DNA of 64,000 nt from an uncultured Acidobacteriia bacterium (GTDB lineage: Bacteria; Acidobacteriota; Terriglobia; Bryobacterales; Bryobacteraceae). The translations under genes were made by a program, and so were the position numbers. The stretch is taken from assembly GCA_903923395.1 (NCBI GenBank), contig CAIXXM010000071.1:1-64000 (forward strand), given 5' to 3'. The stretch's first letter is position 1. Every line of letters starts with the position of its first letter. The notes beneath the pieces were generated by a model, which did not search any database, was not told where the DNA came from, and saw only the letters and a list, made by a program, of their open reading frames with translations. Positions 3,878 through 63,242 of this stretch are shown piece after piece.

Positions 3878-5232
3878 TGAACCTGAAAAATATTCTGACT
3901 ATGAGCACTCTTACTTTGGGTATGGCGGCGGCACAAAATCCCGCAAAACTCGTGGTGGTGGACCCTGGCCACTTTCATGCCACACTCCTGCAGAAGGAAA
4001 TGTATCCCGAACTTGATGCGCGTGTGAGCGTGTTTGCACCGCTGGGTCCGGAGCTTGCGGATTACGTCAACCGGATCTCTTTGTTCAATACCCGTGCGGA
4101 AAACCCGACGACATGGGGGCTCGACATACACACTTCGAATACACCGCTCGAAGATATGCTGGCGGCGAAGAGTGATGGTCCGCGCATTGCTGTATTTTCG
4201 GGGCGCAACCGGGAAAAGATCAACCGGATGCTGGCCTCGCTGCAGGCGGGCTTGCATGTACTGGCGGACAAGCCGTGGATCATTGACGCGAAGGATATGC
4301 CGAAGTTGGAACAGGCTCTGGATCTCGCGGAAAACCGGGGCCTGGCAGCCTATGACATCATGACCGAGCGGTATGAGGTAACCACGCAGGTGCAGCGTGC
4401 CCTGGTGAATCTGCCGGCGGTTTTTGGCACGCAAGTGCCCGGGGATTCTCAACACCCCGGTGTCTATGCCTACAGCGTGCACCACATCATGAAGAACGTG
4501 GCCGGCGTCCCCTTGCGGCGCCCCACCTGGTTCTTTGATGTGGAGGATTACGGGGAAGGTCTGGCCGATGTGGGCACCCATCCGGTGGATCTCATCCAAT
4601 GGACTCTGTTTCCGGATGCCATGCTGGATTACCACAAGGATGTACAGATGATCTCCGGGCGGCACGCGGCCGTCAAGATTACCAAAGAAGAATTTGGCAA
4701 AGTAACTGGCGCAGCGGACTTTCCGGCTTCGGTTGCCAGCCATGTTCACAACGGTGTTCTGGATTATTACTGCGACAACTACATCGAGTACAAGTTGAAG
4801 GGCATACATATCAAACTCGATGTGCTGTGGAAATGGGAAGCGGCCCCGGGAACGGGTGACGTCTATGAGGCTGCCTTTCAGGGCACCAAGTCGCGTATTG
4901 AAATGCGCCAGAATGCCGCGGGCAAGTTTGTACCGGAAGTCTTCGTGGTGCCTGCCAAGGGACACGAGATGGAGGTATTTGCGGCGCTTGATCAAGCGCT
5001 CGCGACATTGCAGACGCAGTGGCCGGGATTGCGGGCTGTGCGCAGCGGCGGTGAGGCCCACGTGGAGATTCCCGCGAAGTTCCGCGTGGGTCATGAAGAT
5101 CATTTCGCGCAGGTGGCGCGCCACTTCTTTCAGTATGTGAAGGACGCGAAGTCCATGCCTGCGTGGGAACGCGGCTATATGCTGGCCAAGTACTATGTGA
5201 GCACGATGGGCGTACAAATGGCCCGGAAGTAG
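3874..5232 (+). CDS. Secreted Gfo/Idh/MocA-like oxidoreductase (putative oxidoreductase C-terminal family)
   Basis: A 452-residue protein beginning at ATG 3874 (ATG 3877 is equally possible), overlapping the previous stop. A signal-like N-terminus ends near AAAQNPAK. The fold is that of Gfo/Idh/MocA dehydrogenases: a Rossmann half with LQAGLHVLADKPWI (the EKP-type motif as DKP) and a C-terminal alpha/beta half with VGTHPVDLIQWTLFP. The glycine-rich dinucleotide loop is replaced by VVVDPGHFHAT, so NAD(P) binding may be altered or absent. Together with the ceramidase-like protein and the Tat-sorted aminotransferase it suggests an extracytoplasmic carbohydrate or glycolipid route. The substrate is unknown. 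Confidence 0.82.
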   Translation: MMNLKNILTMSTLTLGMAAAQNPAKLVVVDPGHFHATLLQKEMYPELDARVSVFAPLGPELADYVNRISLFNTRAENPTTWGLDIHTSNTPLEDMLAAKSDGPRIAVFSGRNREKINRMLASLQAGLHVLADKPWIIDAKDMPKLEQALDLAENRGLAAYDIMTERYEVTTQVQRALVNLPAVFGTQVPGDSQHPGVYAYSVHHIMKNVAGVPLRRPTWFFDVEDYGEGLADVGTHPVDLIQWTLFPDAMLDYHKDVQMISGRHAAVKITKEEFGKVTGAADFPASVASHVHNGVLDYYCDNYIEYKLKGIHIKLDVLWKWEAAPGTGDVYEAAFQGTKSRIEMRQNAAGKFVPEVFVVPAKGHEMEVFAALDQALATLQTQWPGLRAVRSGGEAHVEIPAKFRVGHEDHFAQVARHFFQYVKDAKSMPAWERGYMLAKYYVSTMGVQMARK

Positions 5233-5242
5233 GAGCGGCCGA

Positions 5243-5866
5243 ATGTATACGCCGGAGATTTACAGGATAGAAGACCAGGAGGAAATCCGGGCAATGATCC
5301 GCGCCTGCGGGTTAGCCACTCTGGTGACTGTATCTTCACAGGGAATGATCGGCACGCCTGTACCCCTGTTCCTCGCCGCGGAGGAAGAGGAACAGGGCGT
5401 GCTCTACGGCCACATCGCGCGGGCTAATCCGCAATGGCAGGATTGTACAGAGCCTGAAGCGCTGGTGATCTTTTCCGGTGCCGATGCTTATGTTACTCCG
5501 GCGTGGTATCCGGCAAAGAATGAAACCGGCAGAGTGGTTCCCACTTGGAACTATCTCGCTGTGCATGCTTATGGACCGGTTGAGTTCTTTGAGGATCCGG
5601 CTCGACTGCTCGACGTTGTGTCACGGCTGACGGATTTCCATGAGGGCGGAAATCAGGTGCCGTGGAGTGTGAAGGATGCTCCGCAGGACTTCATTGCCGG
5701 CCAATTGCGGGCCATTGTGGGAGTGCGGATTCCCATCCATCGTCTGGATGCGAAGAAGAAAGTAAACCAGCGAAATACACCGGTGGACCGGGCAGGGGTT
5801 CGGACGGGCTTGCAGTCCCGCGGACTTCCCGGCGATCTCGAAATCGCCGGGAAGATACCGCACTAA
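5243..5866 (+). CDS. PaiB-like FMN-binding protein
   Basis: A 207-residue protein, ten bases after the oxidoreductase gene. It has the PaiB family pattern: an N-terminal MYTPEIYRIEDQEEI, a split-barrel flavin fold with GTPVPLFL, AYVTPAWYPAKNETGRVVPTWNYLAVHAYG, and a C-terminal DRAGVRTGL. PaiB proteins are called FMN-binding negative transcriptional regulators (originally of sporulation and protease genes in Bacillus); most members have no proven regulatory role and may be flavin reductase-like enzymes. The C-terminal KKKVNQRNTPVDRAG has drifted from the usual KVSQNR pattern. Co-direction with the two upstream genes suggests one transcript. It ends four bases before the stop of the convergent receptor gene. 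Confidence 0.85.
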   Translation: MYTPEIYRIEDQEEIRAMIRACGLATLVTVSSQGMIGTPVPLFLAAEEEEQGVLYGHIARANPQWQDCTEPEALVIFSGADAYVTPAWYPAKNETGRVVPTWNYLAVHAYGPVEFFEDPARLLDVVSRLTDFHEGGNQVPWSVKDAPQDFIAGQLRAIVGVRIPIHRLDAKKKVNQRNTPVDRAGVRTGLQSRGLPGDLEIAGKIPH

Positions 5867-5869
5867 GGG

Positions 5870-8800
5870 TTAAAAGTAAAACTTCAAACCGAACTGGATA
5901 TAACGCGGACTGCCGTTGTTATACAGTGTGCCGAAGTTCGTGCCGTAAGCAGAACGGAGTTGGTAGAGCTTATAACCCGTCAGCGTCCGGAGATCGAAGT
6001 TATTCGCATTGCTGGCCCAGAAATTCTGCGGCAGGGGGATGGTGAAGAAGTTCGCGGGCAAGGCACCCGCAGCGGTCTTCTGTGCATTCACCTGGCTGAT
6101 GATCTGGTTGTATTCCACGTAACCGGGGGTGCCGGCCGTGGCGCTGTAAGCAGGCTGTCCATTGGCCGCGGCCCAGGTGTTGTAAGCCGCCGTGGTTAGC
6201 GTTGCCGTGCTGGGAGCACCCATGAAGTCCGCACCGCCGCCAGCATTCGGATAGACGGCGAAAGTGGGATGGTTGAAGGCGTTCAGAGCATCCACGCGGA
6301 ACTGGACTCTGCGCTTCTCGCCGATCCGGAAGTTCTTCTGCACAGAAAGATCGGTATAGCGCTGCCAGGGTCCGCGGGCACCATCGAACGAACGCGGCGC
6401 ATTACCGAGAGCGCCGAGCGCTGGACGCATGAACGCCGCCGGGTTGAGATAGGGTTCGCAACCCGCGCCGATGGGGCAATTGATGTTGAAGTTCGGGTTG
6501 ATTAACGGCACACCGGGGTTGATATCGGGACGCGCGTTGTGGGTCGCATCACCCAACTGGTTCGTATCCGAGAGATACACAGCATACGGGAAGCCGCTGT
6601 TGACACGCACCAGACCAGAGAGTGTCCAGCCACCGACGATCCAATCCGCCGGCTTCCAGATGTTACTCAGGAACTTACGCCCGCGGCCGAAGGGAAGATC
6701 GTAGATAGTGGTCGAGTGAAATACATGGCGCTGGTCGTACAAGGAAACGGAACGGTCAAGCGCACGGGTACCGCCAAAGATCACCTGGCCGCCGACCTGT
6801 CCACCGCCGGGAGTAAGTACACCCTTGTCGGCACCTGCACTCGAAGCGTCATCAATCGATTTGCCATACGTATAATTCGCGGTAGTCATCAAACCGAACT
6901 TGGAGCGCTGTACCAGAGTGATGTAACCGGCGTGGCGGATGCTGTTGCCCGCCGCGTCATACCACTGGTAAAGGCTGGAGAAACCAGCATAAGGACTGCC
7001 GAGGCTGCCCTGTTGCACCGTCAACACCTTCCCGGTCAGCGGATTGATCCGGCCCAGAGGATCATTGATTGTGGCCGTGGTGCTGATGTTCTGCGCGTTC
7101 TGGGCTGAGAGCAAACTGGAACTCTTCGGGTTGATATCTTCCTGGCCCATGAAGAGATGGATTCCCATGTTGCCGCTGTAAGCCGCTTCCACCGTGGTGG
7201 TGGAACTGGCCTGCCAGGAAAGCGTGAAGTTCCAGTTATTGACATAGGGCGTGTGATAGTTCTGCGAGACCGCGTAAGCACCTGTGGAGGCTTGGTAGTA
7301 AAGACTGTTCAGCGCCACCAGGCCATTGGAGGGCGCACCGGCAGTGCCGAAGATCTGCTGGGCAGGTGTTGCGGACGTGAGCACCGGCGGATTCTCGCCG
7401 AGGCGCATCACATACTGCGGATTTGCCGTTGCCGAAGGAGTCGTGGTGGCAAAGGTGGAGGTGGCACCGAAGTCAGGTTGCGGTAATTGCGAGAAGCCGC
7501 TGATGGGAGCATGAGAGATGCCGTACCCGCCACGCACAACAACGTGGTACTTTTCGAGGAACCTGGGCTGCCAGGCGAAGCCGAAGCGCGGCTCAAAGTC
7601 CTTGTACTGCGGTGGCGTGAGATAGGGGGAGTTATCACCGCGGCCGGCAAATGCAAACGTCGGCACATTGATGGACTTCAGCACCGTGCCATCCTGCAGC
7701 GTCAACGGAGATGCAAGACTGATGGTCTGCGTCAGGCCCGTGCGGAACACACCCTGGTTGTTGTACTTTTCCGTGCGCGGCATGGAGAGGTTCCAGCGCA
7801 CGCCGAGATTGATAGTGAGATTCGGGCGAACCTTCCAGTCATTCTGCACAAACAGGTCGCCTGACCAGTAGCGGTAATAGTAAGGCACCGCGACATTGCG
7901 CATGGTGACATTGCCATTTGCCACACCGAGCATGTAACTGGCCCAGGGGCTGCCGCCAGTGCCGGAGGAAGTACCGTTCGAGTCCGTCTGGACATTCGAG
8001 AAGGCGTAAATGCCACCGAACGCACCATAGAGCGGCAGTACATTCTGCAGTGACTTCGAAATATCACCGCCGAAGCGGATGTTCAGATTGCCTTTGACCT
8101 TGGAGACGATTTCCGTGATCGCATAACGCTCTTCCCGATCCTGCAAATTGCCGGAACCGGCGCCGCCGAAGCCTGTTGCCGTGCTGCCGCCACCGCCCAG
8201 ACTGGAGCCGGGAAAGAGGCCGCTGAAGGTGGGAAGTCCACCATTGGTAATGCTGGGCAGTCCAAAGGCCGTGTTGAGGTTCTCACCACCGGCGGGCGCC
8301 CACTTGGGGTCGACCGAGTTATCAAACTGGCCGCGGGTGTAGTTCAGGCGGAGGTCATTCACCAGGGTGGGCGAAACAATCCAGGTTTCGGAAATCATGG
8401 CCTGCTTGGCGTAACTGTACTGTGAGCCGTTATTAGTGGGGCTGACCGGCGTGCCCTGGATCTTCACAATCGGCGTGGTGGTGTAGCGGCCGTAAATCCG
8501 GTTGTTGTCATTGATCACGTGGTCAATGCGGAGGTTATAGCGAGTTTCATCCTGTGAGAGCAGGCGTGGTGAGTAGATGTTGGAAATCGTGTTGTTGCTG
8601 TTCAGGTAGTAAGCACCGGCGGTGGCGATATACGGCAGAGACTTCAACGCGGTGGCGTCCAGCATGCTCTGCGGAATCTTGTTGCCGGGGAACGGCGCGT
8701 AGGTTGCGCCGGAGGCCAGAGTTGCGGTCTGGAACTGGTTGCCGACCACGTTGTAGTTGTTGTAGATCACGCTGTCGCCAGGGGTGAGAGCGGAAGCAGG

Positions 8801-9880
8801 TGCGATGCCCTTGAACTGATCCACCACGGATTGGGGCAACCAGCCGCTGGCAGTGTTGACCAGGCCGCTGAAATCACCGTTGCGCATCCCGTCCGTGGGC
8901 ATCAACCCGTATTGGTCCAGGTGATCACGCCGGTAAAAGGGTTCAATGGCACCGAACCAGAAGGTGCGGTTCTTGCCGTTGTAGACCTTTGGAATCCATA
9001 CCGGACCACCGGCCGCGAGCGAGAACTGGTTGTATTTCAAGGTAGGCTTGGAGCGGTTCGCGGTGGCCAAGGTAAAGGGGGCCGCTGCGAAATCAGGATT
9101 GCGGTTGTACCAAAGAGCCGTGCCGGTGAAGCGGTTGGTACCGGATTTCGTGGTTGCGTTGATGACGCCACCGCCTGTGGAGCCGTATTCCGCCGAGAAG
9201 GCTGAGGTCTGCACCGTGAATTCCTGCACCGTTTCGGGCGTGAAGCTCACCATGGTACGGGCGAGGCTGATGCCTGTATTATTCGCACCGTCGGCCAGCA
9301 TGAGAGTGCTGAGCGGGCGTCCGCCACCCACAGAAAGGTTGCAGCCCGGGCAAGTCACAACGCCGACGATCGCCGGGTTTTCCGTACCGGCATCACCGCT
9401 GACGTTGGGGAGGGTGAGAGCCAGGTCGAGAACGCTGCGGTTAGAAAGCGGTACATCCTGAATTTCGCGTTCCGTGATGGTGGAACTCGCCGTGCCGTTT
9501 TCCGTATTCACCAGAACGGCGTCGGCCTTTACGGTGATCTCAGAGGCGATGCTGCCGGTTTCCAGTTTGATGTCGATGGAAGCGATGGACGCGGTGTCTA
9601 CCTTAATACGATCCACCAGGGTCTTGCGGAAGCCCTTGGCTTCGATGGTCATGCTATATTCCACCGGTTCGAGGGTGGTGAAGTTGTAGGCACCGGAGGC
9701 TGAACTGGTGGTCCGCGATTCTAAACCGGTTCCCAGGTTCTTCAAAACCACGGTCGCGCCGGGGACAACGCCGCCGCTGGAATCGAAAACTGTGCCGGTG
9801 ATACCACCGCGGTTGGTTTGGGCTGACAAGGACGCAGCTAAAATCAAGAGAGGGAGAGCGAATCGGAACGAACGGGTCAA
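5870..9880 (-). CDS. Oar-like TonB-dependent receptor with carboxypeptidase-regulatory-like domain
   Basis: A 1336-residue outer-membrane protein. It starts with TTG at 9880, supported by a GGAGG site at 9887-9891. A signal peptide (MTRSFRFALPLLILAASLSA) is followed by a CarboxypepD_reg-like Ig domain (GGITGTVFDSSGGVVPGATVVLKN), a plug domain (about residues 110-250, with SGGGVINATTKSGTNRFTG) and a long beta-barrel ending in IQFGLKFYF, whose final Phe is typical for BAM insertion. This is the large family expanded in Acidobacteria, related to Myxococcus Oar, and assumed to take up oligosaccharides or peptides. No partner substrate-binding lipoprotein is nearby. It is convergent with the PaiB-like gene. 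Confidence 0.93.
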   Translation of the reverse strand: MTRSFRFALPLLILAASLSAQTNRGGITGTVFDSSGGVVPGATVVLKNLGTGLESRTTSSASGAYNFTTLEPVEYSMTIEAKGFRKTLVDRIKVDTASIASIDIKLETGSIASEITVKADAVLVNTENGTASSTITEREIQDVPLSNRSVLDLALTLPNVSGDAGTENPAIVGVVTCPGCNLSVGGGRPLSTLMLADGANNTGISLARTMVSFTPETVQEFTVQTSAFSAEYGSTGGGVINATTKSGTNRFTGTALWYNRNPDFAAAPFTLATANRSKPTLKYNQFSLAAGGPVWIPKVYNGKNRTFWFGAIEPFYRRDHLDQYGLMPTDGMRNGDFSGLVNTASGWLPQSVVDQFKGIAPASALTPGDSVIYNNYNVVGNQFQTATLASGATYAPFPGNKIPQSMLDATALKSLPYIATAGAYYLNSNNTISNIYSPRLLSQDETRYNLRIDHVINDNNRIYGRYTTTPIVKIQGTPVSPTNNGSQYSYAKQAMISETWIVSPTLVNDLRLNYTRGQFDNSVDPKWAPAGGENLNTAFGLPSITNGGLPTFSGLFPGSSLGGGGSTATGFGGAGSGNLQDREERYAITEIVSKVKGNLNIRFGGDISKSLQNVLPLYGAFGGIYAFSNVQTDSNGTSSGTGGSPWASYMLGVANGNVTMRNVAVPYYYRYWSGDLFVQNDWKVRPNLTINLGVRWNLSMPRTEKYNNQGVFRTGLTQTISLASPLTLQDGTVLKSINVPTFAFAGRGDNSPYLTPPQYKDFEPRFGFAWQPRFLEKYHVVVRGGYGISHAPISGFSQLPQPDFGATSTFATTTPSATANPQYVMRLGENPPVLTSATPAQQIFGTAGAPSNGLVALNSLYYQASTGAYAVSQNYHTPYVNNWNFTLSWQASSTTTVEAAYSGNMGIHLFMGQEDINPKSSSLLSAQNAQNISTTATINDPLGRINPLTGKVLTVQQGSLGSPYAGFSSLYQWYDAAGNSIRHAGYITLVQRSKFGLMTTANYTYGKSIDDASSAGADKGVLTPGGGQVGGQVIFGGTRALDRSVSLYDQRHVFHSTTIYDLPFGRGRKFLSNIWKPADWIVGGWTLSGLVRVNSGFPYAVYLSDTNQLGDATHNARPDINPGVPLINPNFNINCPIGAGCEPYLNPAAFMRPALGALGNAPRSFDGARGPWQRYTDLSVQKNFRIGEKRRVQFRVDALNAFNHPTFAVYPNAGGGADFMGAPSTATLTTAAYNTWAAANGQPAYSATAGTPGYVEYNQIISQVNAQKTAAGALPANFFTIPLPQNFWASNANNFDLRTLTGYKLYQLRSAYGTNFGTLYNNGSPRYIQFGLKFYF

Positions 9881-59057: not shown

Positions 59058-59834
59058 TCACAATCTCGAAATTAGTTTCACGTTGCAGGAAGACAGACCT
59101 GGCGCAGTCGCCACAATCTCCAACTCATCCTGGTCAAAGCTAGTGTTCAAATACACCCCGGCTGGCACAGTCGCCGCCATATACTTCCCGGGAAAGGGTT
59201 GTGTCTCGATCTGGAATCCCCACACCTCAATAGATGCTCCCGCCGGCACCTGAACCGCAAACGTGGAGGCCGCTGATGCCAGACTGCCCGTCCCGCTTAG
59301 CCAGACCCGCCGCCAGTTGGAATTGGCATTGACCGTCGTTGTCACCGAGTCCCGCCGGATCACAACAGCCGCGGAAGCCAACGACCTGACCCAAAAACTA
59401 AAGCAGCAACAGACTGCACCGGGAACCTGGATCGTCTGCTGCAGTTCTTGCATACCGGCAGAGCTGTTACTGACAAGCCATGCCGAAGTGCCGCCAACTG
59501 GATCAGCATTACTTCCCGTACGGGACATCGTTCCGGCACTCCACTCCGTCCGGCTCAGATCCTCGCTGCCCCCCGCCAGATTCACCAGTGGATCAGCGAA
59601 CCCGAACGTACCGTACTTTCCTCTCGCTGCCATAAAGAATGACTTCAGGTCAGAGACCTCAGAATCACTCAGCAGTTCGTAAGTCATTTGCCATCGAACG
59701 ACCCCGCCATGGGTGTCATCGAGATAGACCAGTTCCCCGCTCTCCAGCGCATTTTCGATCCGGCGCCACTTCCGGCGTCGGGTGAACGGCAGTTGCACAG
59801 AGGAGCCACTTCGCAATTGGGGATACCAGCTCAT
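59058..59834 (-). CDS. Phage distal-tail-like protein
   Basis: A 258-residue protein whose ATG overlaps the preceding stop. It begins with MSWYPQLRSGSSVQLPFTRRRKW and has MTYELLSDSEVSDLKSFF, then MAARGKYGTFGFADPL, the pattern of DUF2460-like distal tail proteins (an 'integrate over grid, FF-ARxG...GF-F-DP' segment). The C-terminal half is a beta-sandwich-like insert (SAWLVSNSSAGMQELQQTI, and IEVWGFQIE), perhaps carbohydrate-binding. It probably forms the distal ring between tube and hub. Confidence 0.65.
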   Translation of the reverse strand: MSWYPQLRSGSSVQLPFTRRRKWRRIENALESGELVYLDDTHGGVVRWQMTYELLSDSEVSDLKSFFMAARGKYGTFGFADPLVNLAGGSEDLSRTEWSAGTMSRTGSNADPVGGTSAWLVSNSSAGMQELQQTIQVPGAVCCCFSFWVRSLASAAVVIRRDSVTTTVNANSNWRRVWLSGTGSLASAASTFAVQVPAGASIEVWGFQIETQPFPGKYMAATVPAGVYLNTSFDQDELEIVATAPGLSSCNVKLISRL

Positions 59835-60175
59835 AACACCTCCGCAATCGCCAACACCGAGGTGCTTCGCAACCCAACATCCAACCCGGTCCTTGCCTCA
59901 CCCGCAACAACACACTTATTCGCTGTTTCGCCAGTTACCGGATCTGTGAACGAGAAGGGTTCCCCGTTCTGCGCTTCGAGGAACTGATGTATTGACTCCG
60001 CCTCTGCCGCATCCAGGCCCGCAAGCTCCAACTTCCAGCGTCGCAATGGAACAGAAGTCGAAAAGACCTGTCTCGTTCCATTCAGAAATACGACCTCCTG
60101 TGTCGCATAGGCGTTGCCGGACCCCAAAGGATACTGCGCCACCGCCCCGGTCTTTAGATATGGAAAAGCGGCCAT
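59831..60175 (-). CDS. Small tail protein, DUF2460-like fragment
   Basis: A 114-residue protein from ATG 60175 with GGAGAG upstream. It has the same theme as its neighbour: SVPLRRWKLELAGLDAAEAESIHQFL, then AQNGEPFSFTDPVTG. It may be a second distal-tail or minor tail component that arose by duplication of the domain in the 258-residue protein. It lies directly after the tape-measure-like gene. Confidence 0.65.
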   Translation of the reverse strand: MAAFPYLKTGAVAQYPLGSGNAYATQEVVFLNGTRQVFSTSVPLRRWKLELAGLDAAEAESIHQFLEAQNGEPFSFTDPVTGETANKCVVAGEARTGLDVGLRSTSVLAIAEVL

Positions 60176-60176
60176 G

Positions 60177-60872
60177 TCATCGCTCTCCCATGACACTGCT
60201 CAAAGGATGAAGATTCAACACCGCTTCTCTTACGGCATCCGCGATATCACTACTGCGGGCCATAATCGACTGGCTGTCCAGCGCCTGGATCTGTACGGTA
60301 ACCTGCGGCTGGTAAGTCAAGCCATTCGAAATGCCCGAAGCGCCACCGGTTCCTGCCGGATTTCCACTCGGCAGCGATGTGTTCCCAATGCTGGGCGCAA
60401 GACTATCGGACACCATACTCGAAGCGCCCGCGGACGCCACAGACACGGCACCATTCCGAATCGTGTCATTCAGTTGAATGGAGGGCGCCGGTGTGTACAA
60501 AGGCAGCGGTGGAGGTGTACTTGCCCCCCCTCCGAAGAGGTCTGAGATGCCACTGATCAGCGAAGGAATTCCAAGCAAGCTACCGCCGAATATCTTTTCT
60601 GCCAGCCCCCCCAGCGAGGAAAGAACACCACCACTGCTGCCCTGATTCGAAGTGCCGGTCTTCTCTATCGCTTGCGTATTGGCCTGAATCAGATTCGCTT
60701 GTGCCTGATATGCCTGCCGTAACTGGGCAATCTCCTGGGCGGCCTGTGAGAGCGCGCCCGAAAAGGAAGCACCGTCACCAGTGGATGCCACACTAATCGC
60801 CGGCGCCGATGGCACACCCTTCTGTTTCGGCTGGATCGCACGAAAAGTCTCTTCAATCATGTGATGCCGCAT
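60177..60872 (-). CDS. Short tape-measure-like tail protein
   Basis: A 231-residue protein from ATG 60872 (GGAGA upstream; ATG 60860 is possible). It occupies the tape-measure position. Residues about 40-70 are helical (QEIAQLRQAYQAQANLIQA), followed by a Gly-rich hydrophobic segment (LGGLAEKIFGGSLLG then IPSLISGISDLFGGG). The C-terminal VTVQIQALDSQSIMARSSDI with AVREAVLNLHP matches the end of several phage tail-length proteins. At about 1.5 angstroms per residue it would set a tail of only about 35 nm. It overlaps the chaperone T-frame by 20 bases. Confidence 0.6.
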   Translation of the reverse strand: MRHHMIEETFRAIQPKQKGVPSAPAISVASTGDGASFSGALSQAAQEIAQLRQAYQAQANLIQANTQAIEKTGTSNQGSSGGVLSSLGGLAEKIFGGSLLGIPSLISGISDLFGGGASTPPPLPLYTPAPSIQLNDTIRNGAVSVASAGASSMVSDSLAPSIGNTSLPSGNPAGTGGASGISNGLTYQPQVTVQIQALDSQSIMARSSDIADAVREAVLNLHPLSSVMGER

Positions 60873-61203
60873 CTTTTGTCTCCCCTTCCAATTCACCCTG
60901 CAAAATCACGAACGCCTCCGCTGTCCGCGCTTCCAAGTCCCTTACTTCCCCGAAGCCAAGCCGGTTGCGCACCAGAAACTCCTCCACCCATCCGGTGCTT
61001 TCTGCCGTAATCAGAGACTTCGGACATTCCTCCGCAGCCACCTGCTTCCGCAGCCACACCACCCGGCGTACTCCCCGCTCCGACTCCTTAAGAAAACCGC
61101 AGCGCCGTGACACCTCAAGCCCCTGCCGCCTGCATTCCCCGCAATCCCACCCGGCACGGCTTGCCGCCGGGGAGGCCGCAAGATAGTGGAACGCGGTAAT
61201 CAG
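60853..61203 (-). CDS. T-frame of the tail assembly chaperone, reached by -1 frameshift (GT product)
   Basis: Open -1 frame of 116 codons immediately following the slippery heptamer at 61203-61209; it has no own good start, only a GTG at 61113. Read from the shift it begins LITAFHYLAASPAASRAGWDCGECRRQGLEVSRRC, with a Cys set (CGEC, RRC) that could bind a metal, then a helical tail (STGWVEEFLVRNRLGFGEVRD). The frameshift would give a G-T fusion of about 239 residues. In dsDNA tailed phages G and GT work together as chaperones that bring tube and tape measure together before assembly. Confidence 0.75.
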   Translation of the reverse strand: MITAFHYLAASPAASRAGWDCGECRRQGLEVSRRCGFLKESERGVRRVVWLRKQVAAEECPKSLITAESTGWVEEFLVRNRLGFGEVRDLEARTAEAFVILQGELEGETKDAASHD

Positions 61204-61571
61204 TTTTTTCTTTCTTGCTCACTTAGTCCGCACTCGGCCCGCACATACTCCAGTGCTTCGTGCACTAACTCCTCCGGACCCATGTCAAGAAACGTTCGGC
61301 ACTCCGCGGGTGTCCCGTCAATGACCAGGCCCTCCACCGCTTCCAGTCCCCATTCCAGATAGATGCGGTCGATCTGACCTGCAAGCAGACTGGCCTCCAT
61401 GACGTTCTTCTCATCACGTCCAGCCTCAAAGTATTCCAGGCGCGCAGCCAAATCCCGGATGCGGCCCATCAACTCCATACGCCGCCCGAAGCTGATCCTC
61501 CGGACGACGTAAGTGACACCAGCAGAGACCAGTGACTCCTTGCGCTTGACACTTTCCCATTGCATAACCAT
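61200..61571 (-). CDS. Tail assembly chaperone, G frame
   Basis: A 123-residue protein just after the major tail gene (its ATG at 61571 abuts the stop). It is all-helical and acidic at the end: MVMQWESVKRKESLVSAGV, then RMELMGRIRDLAARLEYFEAGRDEKNV, and IYLEWGLEAVEGLVIDGTPAECRTFLD. The last codons are GAA AGA AAA AAC TGA; the AAAAAAC heptamer is in the correct zero-frame phase. Position between major tail and tape measure is diagnostic for the G protein. Its small size and lack of recognisable homology are typical of this rapidly evolving chaperone. Confidence 0.78.
   Translation of the reverse strand: MVMQWESVKRKESLVSAGVTYVVRRISFGRRMELMGRIRDLAARLEYFEAGRDEKNVMEASLLAGQIDRIYLEWGLEAVEGLVIDGTPAECRTFLDMGPEELVHEALEYVRAECGLSEQERKN
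61203..61209 (-). other. Slippery heptamer A AAA AAC for -1 programmed frameshift
   Basis: On the minus strand the zero-frame codons AGA AAA AAC TGA contain A AAA AAC, the X XXY YYZ form, directly before the stop of the chaperone gene. The -1 frame beyond is open for 116 codons. A GC-rich hairpin (CCCGGC at 61171-61166 with GCCGGG at 61155-61150) lies about 32 bases downstream, further than the usual 5-9, so its role is uncertain. Confidence 0.8.
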
Positions 61572-62747: not shown

Positions 62748-63242
62748 CTACTTGCTGACCTCCACGTCAAATTTGACTTTCGCCCTTTGCAGGAAATTCT
62801 TGCCGCCCTTCGTCGCGGCTTCGTAACTTACTTCGTATCCACCCGTGTAAAATGCCCCGTCGCCCCAGTCACCCCGGTGGTCATCCAAGAGAGCACAGAC
62901 CGCGTCAACATAAACCTGCAACTCGGTTTCAATGTTGTCCAGCCGGTCAAGCGAATATCGAATCTCAACCACCATGGACGCTGTTCCTGAAAACTGCCGG
63001 AATTTCTCCCGCAGCTTGTTCCCGAGCTTGTCGCAGTAGACCAGGGCAGCCGGGTACTTTGCCAACCCGCTCTTGTCACTGGTTTCCACACCCACGTTCT
63101 GCTGTGTGATCTGCCGGATTGGCACCAACGGTGCCCCTCCCGCGGCAGCACGTATGGCAGCTGCCCGAACCGTCATGCCATCGCCCGGAGCACTCATGAG
63201 ACCGGCCACGGCCGCCGTCAACATCCCACTGATTCCCGCCAT
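62748..63242 (-). CDS. Tail terminator-like (gpU-like) protein
   Basis: A 164-residue protein three bases before the tube gene. Residues 60-164 (YPAALVYCDKLGNKL, then MVVEIRYSLDRLDNIETELQVYVDAVCALLDDH, and FYTGGYEVSYEAATKGGKNFLQRAKVKFDVEV) have the alpha/beta arrangement of small phage proteins that cap the tube (strand-helix-strand around a 'Y-A-V-x-L-L' helix). Its position between neck and tube genes is the main support. Confidence 0.55.
   Translation of the reverse strand: MAGISGMLTAAVAGLMSAPGDGMTVRAAAIRAAAGGAPLVPIRQITQQNVGVETSDKSGLAKYPAALVYCDKLGNKLREKFRQFSGTASMVVEIRYSLDRLDNIETELQVYVDAVCALLDDHRGDWGDGAFYTGGYEVSYEAATKGGKNFLQRAKVKFDVEVSK

Follow-up and report, generated by a model that had tools for sequence, protein, structure and literature searches.

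A putative G/GT-type frameshift gene in a mainly vertically inherited head-tail cluster of Bryobacterales

The G frame, the T frame and the slip site

We analysed a stretch of 64,000 nucleotides (nt), hereafter the window, from contig CAIXXM010000071.1 of an uncultured Acidobacteriia bacterium of a Bryobacterales family (assembly GCA_903923395.1). Its subject here is a putative tail-assembly-chaperone gene with two overlapping frames, G and T, located between the tail tube gene and a short tape-measure gene of a phage-like head-tail cluster. Gene, heptamer and −1 frame all lie on the minus strand; their coordinates (Table 1) are otherwise those of an earlier reading made from the letters by a model (the sequence-only reading), which gave no strand. 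The zero frame, G, starts at ATG 61571, abutting the stop codon of the tube gene (TAGATG), and ends AGA AAA AAC TGA, with the TGA at 61202-61200. A slippery heptamer, A_AAA_AAC, is therefore in the phase X_XXY_YYZ directly before the stop, and it is the single AAAAAAC in the window, against 7.35 expected in shuffles. The −1 frame, T, continues for 116 codons to its stop at 60855-60853, and an 86-residue open reading frame (ORF) starting at GTG 61113 is nested in it. A slip at the heptamer would yield a fusion, GT, of 123 + 116 = 239 residues. These features bear out what the sequence-only reading had described, namely the phased heptamer at the end of the gene, an open −1 frame that takes in the GTG 61113 ORF, and a product of about 239 residues. 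The order that it gave, tube, G/T gene and tape measure, also holds, the tube being recognised by Pfam and the tape measure by position and a weak PHROG match.

The same site was found in relatives. We could read 171 homologous junctions, comprising 57 from the 58 genomes of a first set and 114 from 118 further loci; of the 194 family genomes with G, 167 had the junction examined. Left uncounted were G037 (cut by its contig), G222 (masked), G240 and G050b (contig ends) and G188, whose G match ends early and in which no T was found; should G188 be a true miss, the total would be 164 + 4 of 172. The heptamer is AAAAAAC at 164 of the 171 junctions, AAAAAAT at 4, GGGGGAA at 2 and GAGAAAC at 1. In the first set, AAAAAAC was in phase in 56 of the 57 genomes read, the other one (G035) having GAGAAAC. 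The 114 further loci hold 108 AAAAAAC, 4 AAAAAAT (G206 and three genomes of genus g72) and 2 GGGGGAA, both of the latter in second, phage-like elements. In IMG/VR, 74 of 105 loci have G and 65 are readable, 61 of these with AAAAAAC (some may repeat the genomes); the exceptions are L296 and L297, which read A_AAA_AAA in the printed context, L294 (AAACAAC) and L313 (GAGAAAC), the last on a contig equal in length to that of G035 and probably the same one. The altered heptamers of G035 (L018, 1840-1863) and L294 may be real changes or assembly errors. Conservation in homologous modules was the sequence half of the test that the sequence-only reading had set for itself, and both the heptamer and the T frame are clearly conserved there.

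What surrounds the heptamer is less constant. The base 5' of the zero-frame AAA is A in 168 of the 171 junctions, and this is the unselected figure, since the 168 A-type sites considered below were picked by their heptamer and an A-ending preceding codon is built into them. That A closes an Arg codon at 154 of the 168 sites and a Thr, Glu, Ile, Lys, Ala or Leu codon at 14; in the rest of G, A is the last base of 290 among 1943 Arg codons, and AAA is used for 118 of the 536 Lys residues. The run of A measures exactly 6 nt at 163 sites, 7 at 3 and 10 at 2. The zero-frame stop follows the heptamer directly at 137 sites, one codon on at 23 and 22-65 codons on at 8. As the stop and the preceding amino acid vary while the heptamer stays, it is the nucleotide signal that is conserved, not the protein end. 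The −1 frame of the A-type sites closes after 101-141 codons, except in G056, where it runs off the contig, and in G189, which is counted for the heptamer though its −1 frame closes at 60 codons; T there continues in another frame, probably because of one indel. A Shine-Dalgarno (SD) stimulator 5' of the heptamer was also considered: GAGG is present at 59 of the 168 sites, but zero-frame Glu codons could explain it and we do not claim it.

The T domain and the downstream stem-loop

The T frame has the marks of a protein domain. In 55 T sequences the four cysteines C22, C25, C36 and C61 are invariant, as are A5, R34, W51 and P62, plus K1 and L2, which overlap the heptamer. Variability in the −1 frame is highest at codon position 3 (0.58, against 0.42 and 0.38 at the other positions), and the median ratio of nonsynonymous to synonymous substitution rates (dN/dS) is 0.49 in this frame, compared with 1.03 and 1.29 in the other two; these values are rough, being taken at high divergence from the 185 of 1540 possible pairs with dS of 0.05-1.2. 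Selection is thus protein-like in the −1 frame only. AlphaFold2 models of T and G have predicted local distance difference test (pLDDT) scores of 91 and 89.5, respectively.

Alignment of the relatives further revealed a ten-pair stem with a 25-nt loop, whose base lies 5 nt 3' of the heptamer (A3 columns 13-17 with 56-60 and 19-23 with 49-53), a spacing usual for ribosomal frameshifting. It was counted on 140 distinct, equal-length sequences out of the 168, the same sequences from which it was derived, and compared with shuffles that ignore the relatedness of the sequences. The central stem pair occurs in the own best fold of 119 of the 140. Paired cells amount to 97.6%, against 94.7% in shuffles and 37-54% when the stem is slid; cells with both partners altered number 31, where shuffles give 6.5 and none of 500 reaches as many; and covariation scores 0.181, compared with 0.133 for shuffles and no more than 0.083 for slid versions. 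As the stem is part of a coding region, we also tested it against the encoded protein in all 168 sequences, either by swapping synonymous 3'-arm codons between sequences or by drawing codons from T-gene usage. In the observed sequences 9.70 of 10 pairs form, compared with 9.63 (standard deviation (sd) 0.015, maximum 9.67) after synonymous exchange, and duplex energies agree with the codon-null result. The pairing is mostly due to the encoded amino acids, with a consistent excess on top. When unaligned 60-nt segments of the 168 junctions were folded, mean z was about −1.0 at +5 and +20 nt past the heptamer, near 0 further on, and also −0.8 at −60.

The surrounding cluster and its inheritance

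The cluster spans about 14 kb, from 55151 to 68987 in window coordinates, its last 5 kb or so lying outside the window. It contains terminase, portal, scaffold, P22-type capsid (Pfam P22_CoatProtein), neck, tube, G/GT, tape-measure, two weakly DUF2460-like and hub genes; those for capsid, scaffold, portal and terminase are on the same contig beyond the window end. The tape-measure ORF is open from GTG 60896, and its likely start is ATG 60872 behind GGAAGGGGAG.

Table 1. Features of the G/T gene and its neighbours in the window (E, expectation value)
Feature	Position	Strand	Basis
G frame, putative tail chaperone, zero frame, 123 residues including the ATG start	61200..61571 (stop included)	-	ORF reading and matches in relatives
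Slippery heptamer A_AAA_AAC	61203..61209	-	In phase X_XXY_YYZ, directly 5' of the zero-frame TGA
T frame (−1), 116 codons past the heptamer plus stop	60853..61206	-	Conserved domain, four invariant Cys
Stem-loop, 5' arm, from 5 nt after the heptamer	61187..61197	-	Alignment of relatives; 9 of 10 consensus pairs possible in the window
Stem-loop, 3' arm	61138..61149	-	Alignment of relatives
Tail tube protein, 390 residues	61572..62744	-	Pfam Phage_tube_2, E 1.6e-14; PHROG 290
Short tape measure	60177..60872	-	Position; weak tape-measure PHROG match, E 0.0035; overlaps the T stop
Minor tail protein, weakly Phage_min_tail / DUF2460-like	59831..60196	-	Below Pfam cut-off; PHROG 14, E 0.00063
Minor/distal tail protein, DUF2460-like	59058..59834	-	E 7.7e-5, below Pfam cut-off
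Tail hub / host-specificity protein, 1298 residues	55151..59047	-	Phage-tail_3; PHROG central tail fiber J
164-residue protein at the tail-terminator position	62748..63242	-	Position and synteny; no confident Pfam/PHROG match
Neck/connector-like protein, 253 residues	63246..64000 (to 64007 of the contig)	-	Head closure Hc3, E 0.0011, from 250 of 253 residues

The large loci of relatives have an identical gene order over the length that each covers. Loci longer than 9 kb show tube, G and T, then tape measure or DUF2460-like genes; among them, the tape-measure query had no match in L035, L076 and the second element L067. The span from terminase to hub is 13.4-14.1 kb in 16 of the 21 loci where both were found, the outliers being L051 (16.9 kb), L063 (14.6 kb) and three shorter ones (partial matches or a contig end). 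The ORF in the tape-measure region of 25 loci has a median of 217 residues and measures 185-255 residues in 21; the others have 43 (L076), 146, 153 and 601 (L051). In L051 (G068, about 4790-9000) roughly 4 kb separate T from the DUF2460-like gene, where about 0.6 kb is usual, which may reflect an insertion or a longer tape measure. L076 (G048) has the 43-residue ORF only, yet its G, T and heptamer are intact. On the 3' side of the hub, the window's genus and several other genera, but not all, have a Wzt-like ABC transporter gene. No integrase, replication or lysis gene was recognised in the cluster and three scanned neighbours, several cluster genes having no family match. Distant relatives of the capsid occur in 68 phage records, all less than 60% identical.

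Of 101 genomes searched around that of the window, 58 have a G match, the source genome among them. A profile built from 49 G sequences matched 194 of 237 genomes of the Bryobacterales family (Acidobacteriota), again with the window's own, including 121 of 148 high-quality ones, and 68 of 76 genera. Of 399 genomes drawn from the class, 86 match, 3 of them outside the family; a fourth outsider with G is G061, from the set of 101. One match per genome is the rule (184 of 194), and 10 genomes have two or three. Some of these multiple matches (L061/L214 in G050, L196/L213 in G254, L139/L147 in G236) are diverged or at contig ends, and a second element, contamination or fragmentation may account for them.

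To compare descent, trees of tube, G and T and of the host RpoB (frame chosen by phmmer) were built for 45 genomes. The two share 22 of 42 splits, whereas label shuffles share 0.2 on average and 2 at most. Among well-supported splits, the RpoB tree contains 16 of 21 from the element, and the element tree 15 of 21 from RpoB, a minority disagreeing. Mantel r between element and RpoB is 0.78 for all genomes, 0.79 within the family and 0.59 among the family's other genera, and the largest values of 2000 permutations are 0.45, 0.35 and 0.47, respectively. The cluster is mainly vertically inherited, with a history that for the most part follows the host tree. Of 21 high-quality family genomes examined that have no G, 18 also gave no capsid gene, which points to loss as a unit. 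In IMG/VR there are at least 595 stretches with capsid relatives; contig sizes are about 4-18.5 kb for the best 80 (L266-L345) and reach 19.7 kb among those bearing G, although such contigs may be fragments. Genomes of long-tailed phages are usually longer. Some of the soil contigs of about 4-20 kb that IMG/VR classes as 'viral' may be this chromosomal element.

Interpretation and comparison with known systems

The main argument that G and T form a tail-assembly chaperone is their position between tube and tape measure together with the two-frame organisation. One of 49 G members matches a tail-chaperone PHROG, at E 0.089 only. In a Foldseek search of the viral models in BFVD, G had a single match below E 0.001, to a Caudovirales phage protein that is uncharacterised; among the best 50 of 250 matches, 11 by raw count are named tail assembly or tape-measure chaperones (E 0.09-1.1). 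The predicted fold similarity of G to tail chaperones is suggestive, not significant, and the T fold had no match in PDB and BFVD. By tblastn, G had no match at E 0.1 in 50,697 phage records; in isolate phages the tube had none at E 0.001 and T had one at chance level (E 0.7). The profile search that the sequence-only reading had proposed as a check tied neither frame to a named chaperone family.

Organisation, position, heptamer phase, a conserved −1 frame, selection specific to that frame and the stem-loop all agree with the G/GT type of frameshift proposed from the letters. Taken together, we propose with high confidence that this is a G/GT tail-assembly-chaperone gene with a −1 slip, in a mainly vertically inherited Bryobacterales cluster; the programmed frameshift is very probably real. 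The majority of ribosomes would stop at the TGA and release G, and a fraction would slip one base back on A_AAA_AAC, enter the −1 frame and make GT, probably helped by the stem-loop. By analogy with lambda, G would coat the short tape measure and the T domain would recruit the tube protein, giving a short non-contractile tail.

Several results pull the other way. In G035 and the IMG/VR locus L294, both frames are kept without a good heptamer. A_AAA_AAC is reported to be far less slippery than A_AAA_AAG in Escherichia coli (PMC5009743). Searches of Pfam, PHROG and PDB with both frames and their alignments gave no usable match. As for the stem, its 3 pairs with a double change are equalled by 91 of 500 shuffles and its 12 further pair types by 61 of 500; sliding it by +1 gives 38 double-change cells against 31; and the codon-usage null already forms 8.77 of 10 pairs (sd 0.04), against the 9.70 observed. 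In the window itself, the fold of the 100-nt RNA is no more stable than those of shuffles (z +0.69) and uses pairings other than the consensus stem, because its loop is longer and GC-rich. Given no support from this fold, and unaligned segments with a similar z also at −60, the stem is claimed from the alignment. Finally, a stretch of 116 codons remains free of stops in 700 of 20,000 Markov sequences matched in composition, which makes the open frame, taken from the window alone, modest to weak evidence.

That last figure is also the argument for chance or decay, that is, for two adjacent open frames of a degraded prophage in GC-rich DNA, where long open frames are not rare. It is the conservation in relatives, AAAAAAC or AAAAAAT at nearly all junctions, that raises the slip site above chance; with the T frame and the junction also kept across the family, with selection confined to the −1 frame, and with capsid and G so often missing together, we find this explanation scarcely credible. 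It is also very improbable that T is an independent gene, read without a frameshift from a start of its own inside T, such as the one at GTG 61113 (the 86-residue ORF), or upstream inside G. Some ATG, GTG or TTG is present in all 168 T frames, and the open −1 stretch 5' of the heptamer contains a start codon at 98 sites; it has none, however, at the other 70, and within T the median position of the first possible start is codon 33; just 8 of 168 have it by codon 5, and in 16 it is preceded by an SD-like word. A separate start therefore cannot be the general rule. Moreover, the conserved part of T begins at the slip site and precedes most internal starts, so that a start inside T would miss it, and the upkeep of the heptamer would be left unexplained. 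As in G/GT genes, the overlapping −1 frame encodes a conserved protein but lacks a conserved start codon.

Transcriptional slippage, in which RNA polymerase inserts or skips an A within the A-run and an altered mRNA is then translated, would fit a conserved A-run, and runs of 7 and 10 do occur at a few sites. We nevertheless regard it as improbable, given that the run is exactly 6 at nearly all A-type sites, that both the C or T after it and the phase are kept, and that the stem-loop stands at a spacing typical of ribosomal slips. In addition, the two second, phage-like copies have GGGGGAA, the sole sequence seen for the 'fivetwo' motif in SEA-PHAGES frameshift data (PMC10885494).

The frameshift mechanism is a textbook device, and its setting in a gene-transfer-agent-like cluster is the more interesting result. 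Gene transfer agents have been described as derivatives of phages that are passed on vertically and cannot package their own genes in full (PMC9662315, PMC10883770). Both a phage-like head-tail cluster in the host chromosome and its vertical transmission are found here, and this locus most likely provides the structural genes of a gene-transfer-agent-like element. That the G/T module would belong to such an element and not to an ordinary prophage was absent from the sequence-only reading. It is unlikely that the cluster is a dead prophage, and the tail is probably still built, because the slip site and T domain are kept. One putative prophage each has been reported in Bryobacter aggregatus and 'Candidatus Solibacter usitatus' (PMC5900883). 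Among the matches listed in the open-licence literature we found no description of a gene transfer agent of Acidobacteria, Acidobacteriota or Bryobacter, and no account of tail chaperones or frameshifts in gene transfer agents that covers this element. A further proposal, on which we are evenly divided, is that the cluster is the structural part of a gene transfer agent lineage not yet described, which has a P22-type coat, has passed down with its Acidobacteriota (Bryobacterales) hosts in the family and a few outlying lineages, and still depends on G/GT slippage by the ribosome, with heptamer and stem-loop maintained as a host trait; its very short tape measure would need a lower G:GT ratio, and hence a more efficient slip, than in long-tailed phages. 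If particles carry host DNA, a widespread family of soil bacteria would have in them a system for gene transfer. In either case, 171 junctions of a mainly vertically inherited element make a clean natural experiment on a frameshift signal, in which heptamer, stem and T domain are kept, and the amino acid before the slip and the place of the zero-frame stop are free.

G/GT frameshifting has long been known in tailed phages, lambda making G and GT at a ratio of 30:1, and the tail chaperone ORFs of this type are said to share little sequence (PMC5009743). A_AAA_AAC is among the consensus heptamers of prokaryotic frameshift genes (PMC3711429). The present gene resembles the lambda type in the site between tube and tape measure, the in-phase heptamer at the end of G, the overlapping −1 T frame and the two predicted products from one start. 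It differs in that neither G nor T has a usable Pfam or PHROG match, in the four invariant cysteines of T, and in having A_AAA_AAC and a conserved downstream stem-loop within a mainly vertically inherited chromosomal cluster. The haloarchaeal virus HCTV-2 is reported to have the same heptamer, A_AAA_AAC, at its g-t site (PMC5009743); the likeness noted here is in the heptamer, and its bearer is an archaeal virus. The second elements L067 (G000) and L068 (G017) carry a homologue of G, and their −1 frames are hit by the T profile (E 4.5e-9 and 6e-9) and share the cysteine pattern, but their slip site is GGGGGAA. L067 (G000:C156) is on a second contig of the window's own genome, with a capsid 81% identical and a 999-residue ORF at the tape-measure position.

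Like the present locus, RcGTA of Rhodobacter capsulatus (Rhodogtaviriformidae) is a head-tail cluster, and we take its size and gene order to be similar. The two differ in the P22-type coat gene found here (Pfam P22_CoatProtein) and in the separate 'tail chaperone 2' gene, g10.5, of RcGTA (PMC11409702); the word 'frameshift' is absent from two papers on RcGTA (PMC11409702, PMC7296036). They have in common a short tape measure, of 113 + 83 + 20 residues by description in RcGTA (PMC7296036), and mainly vertical inheritance (PMC10883770).

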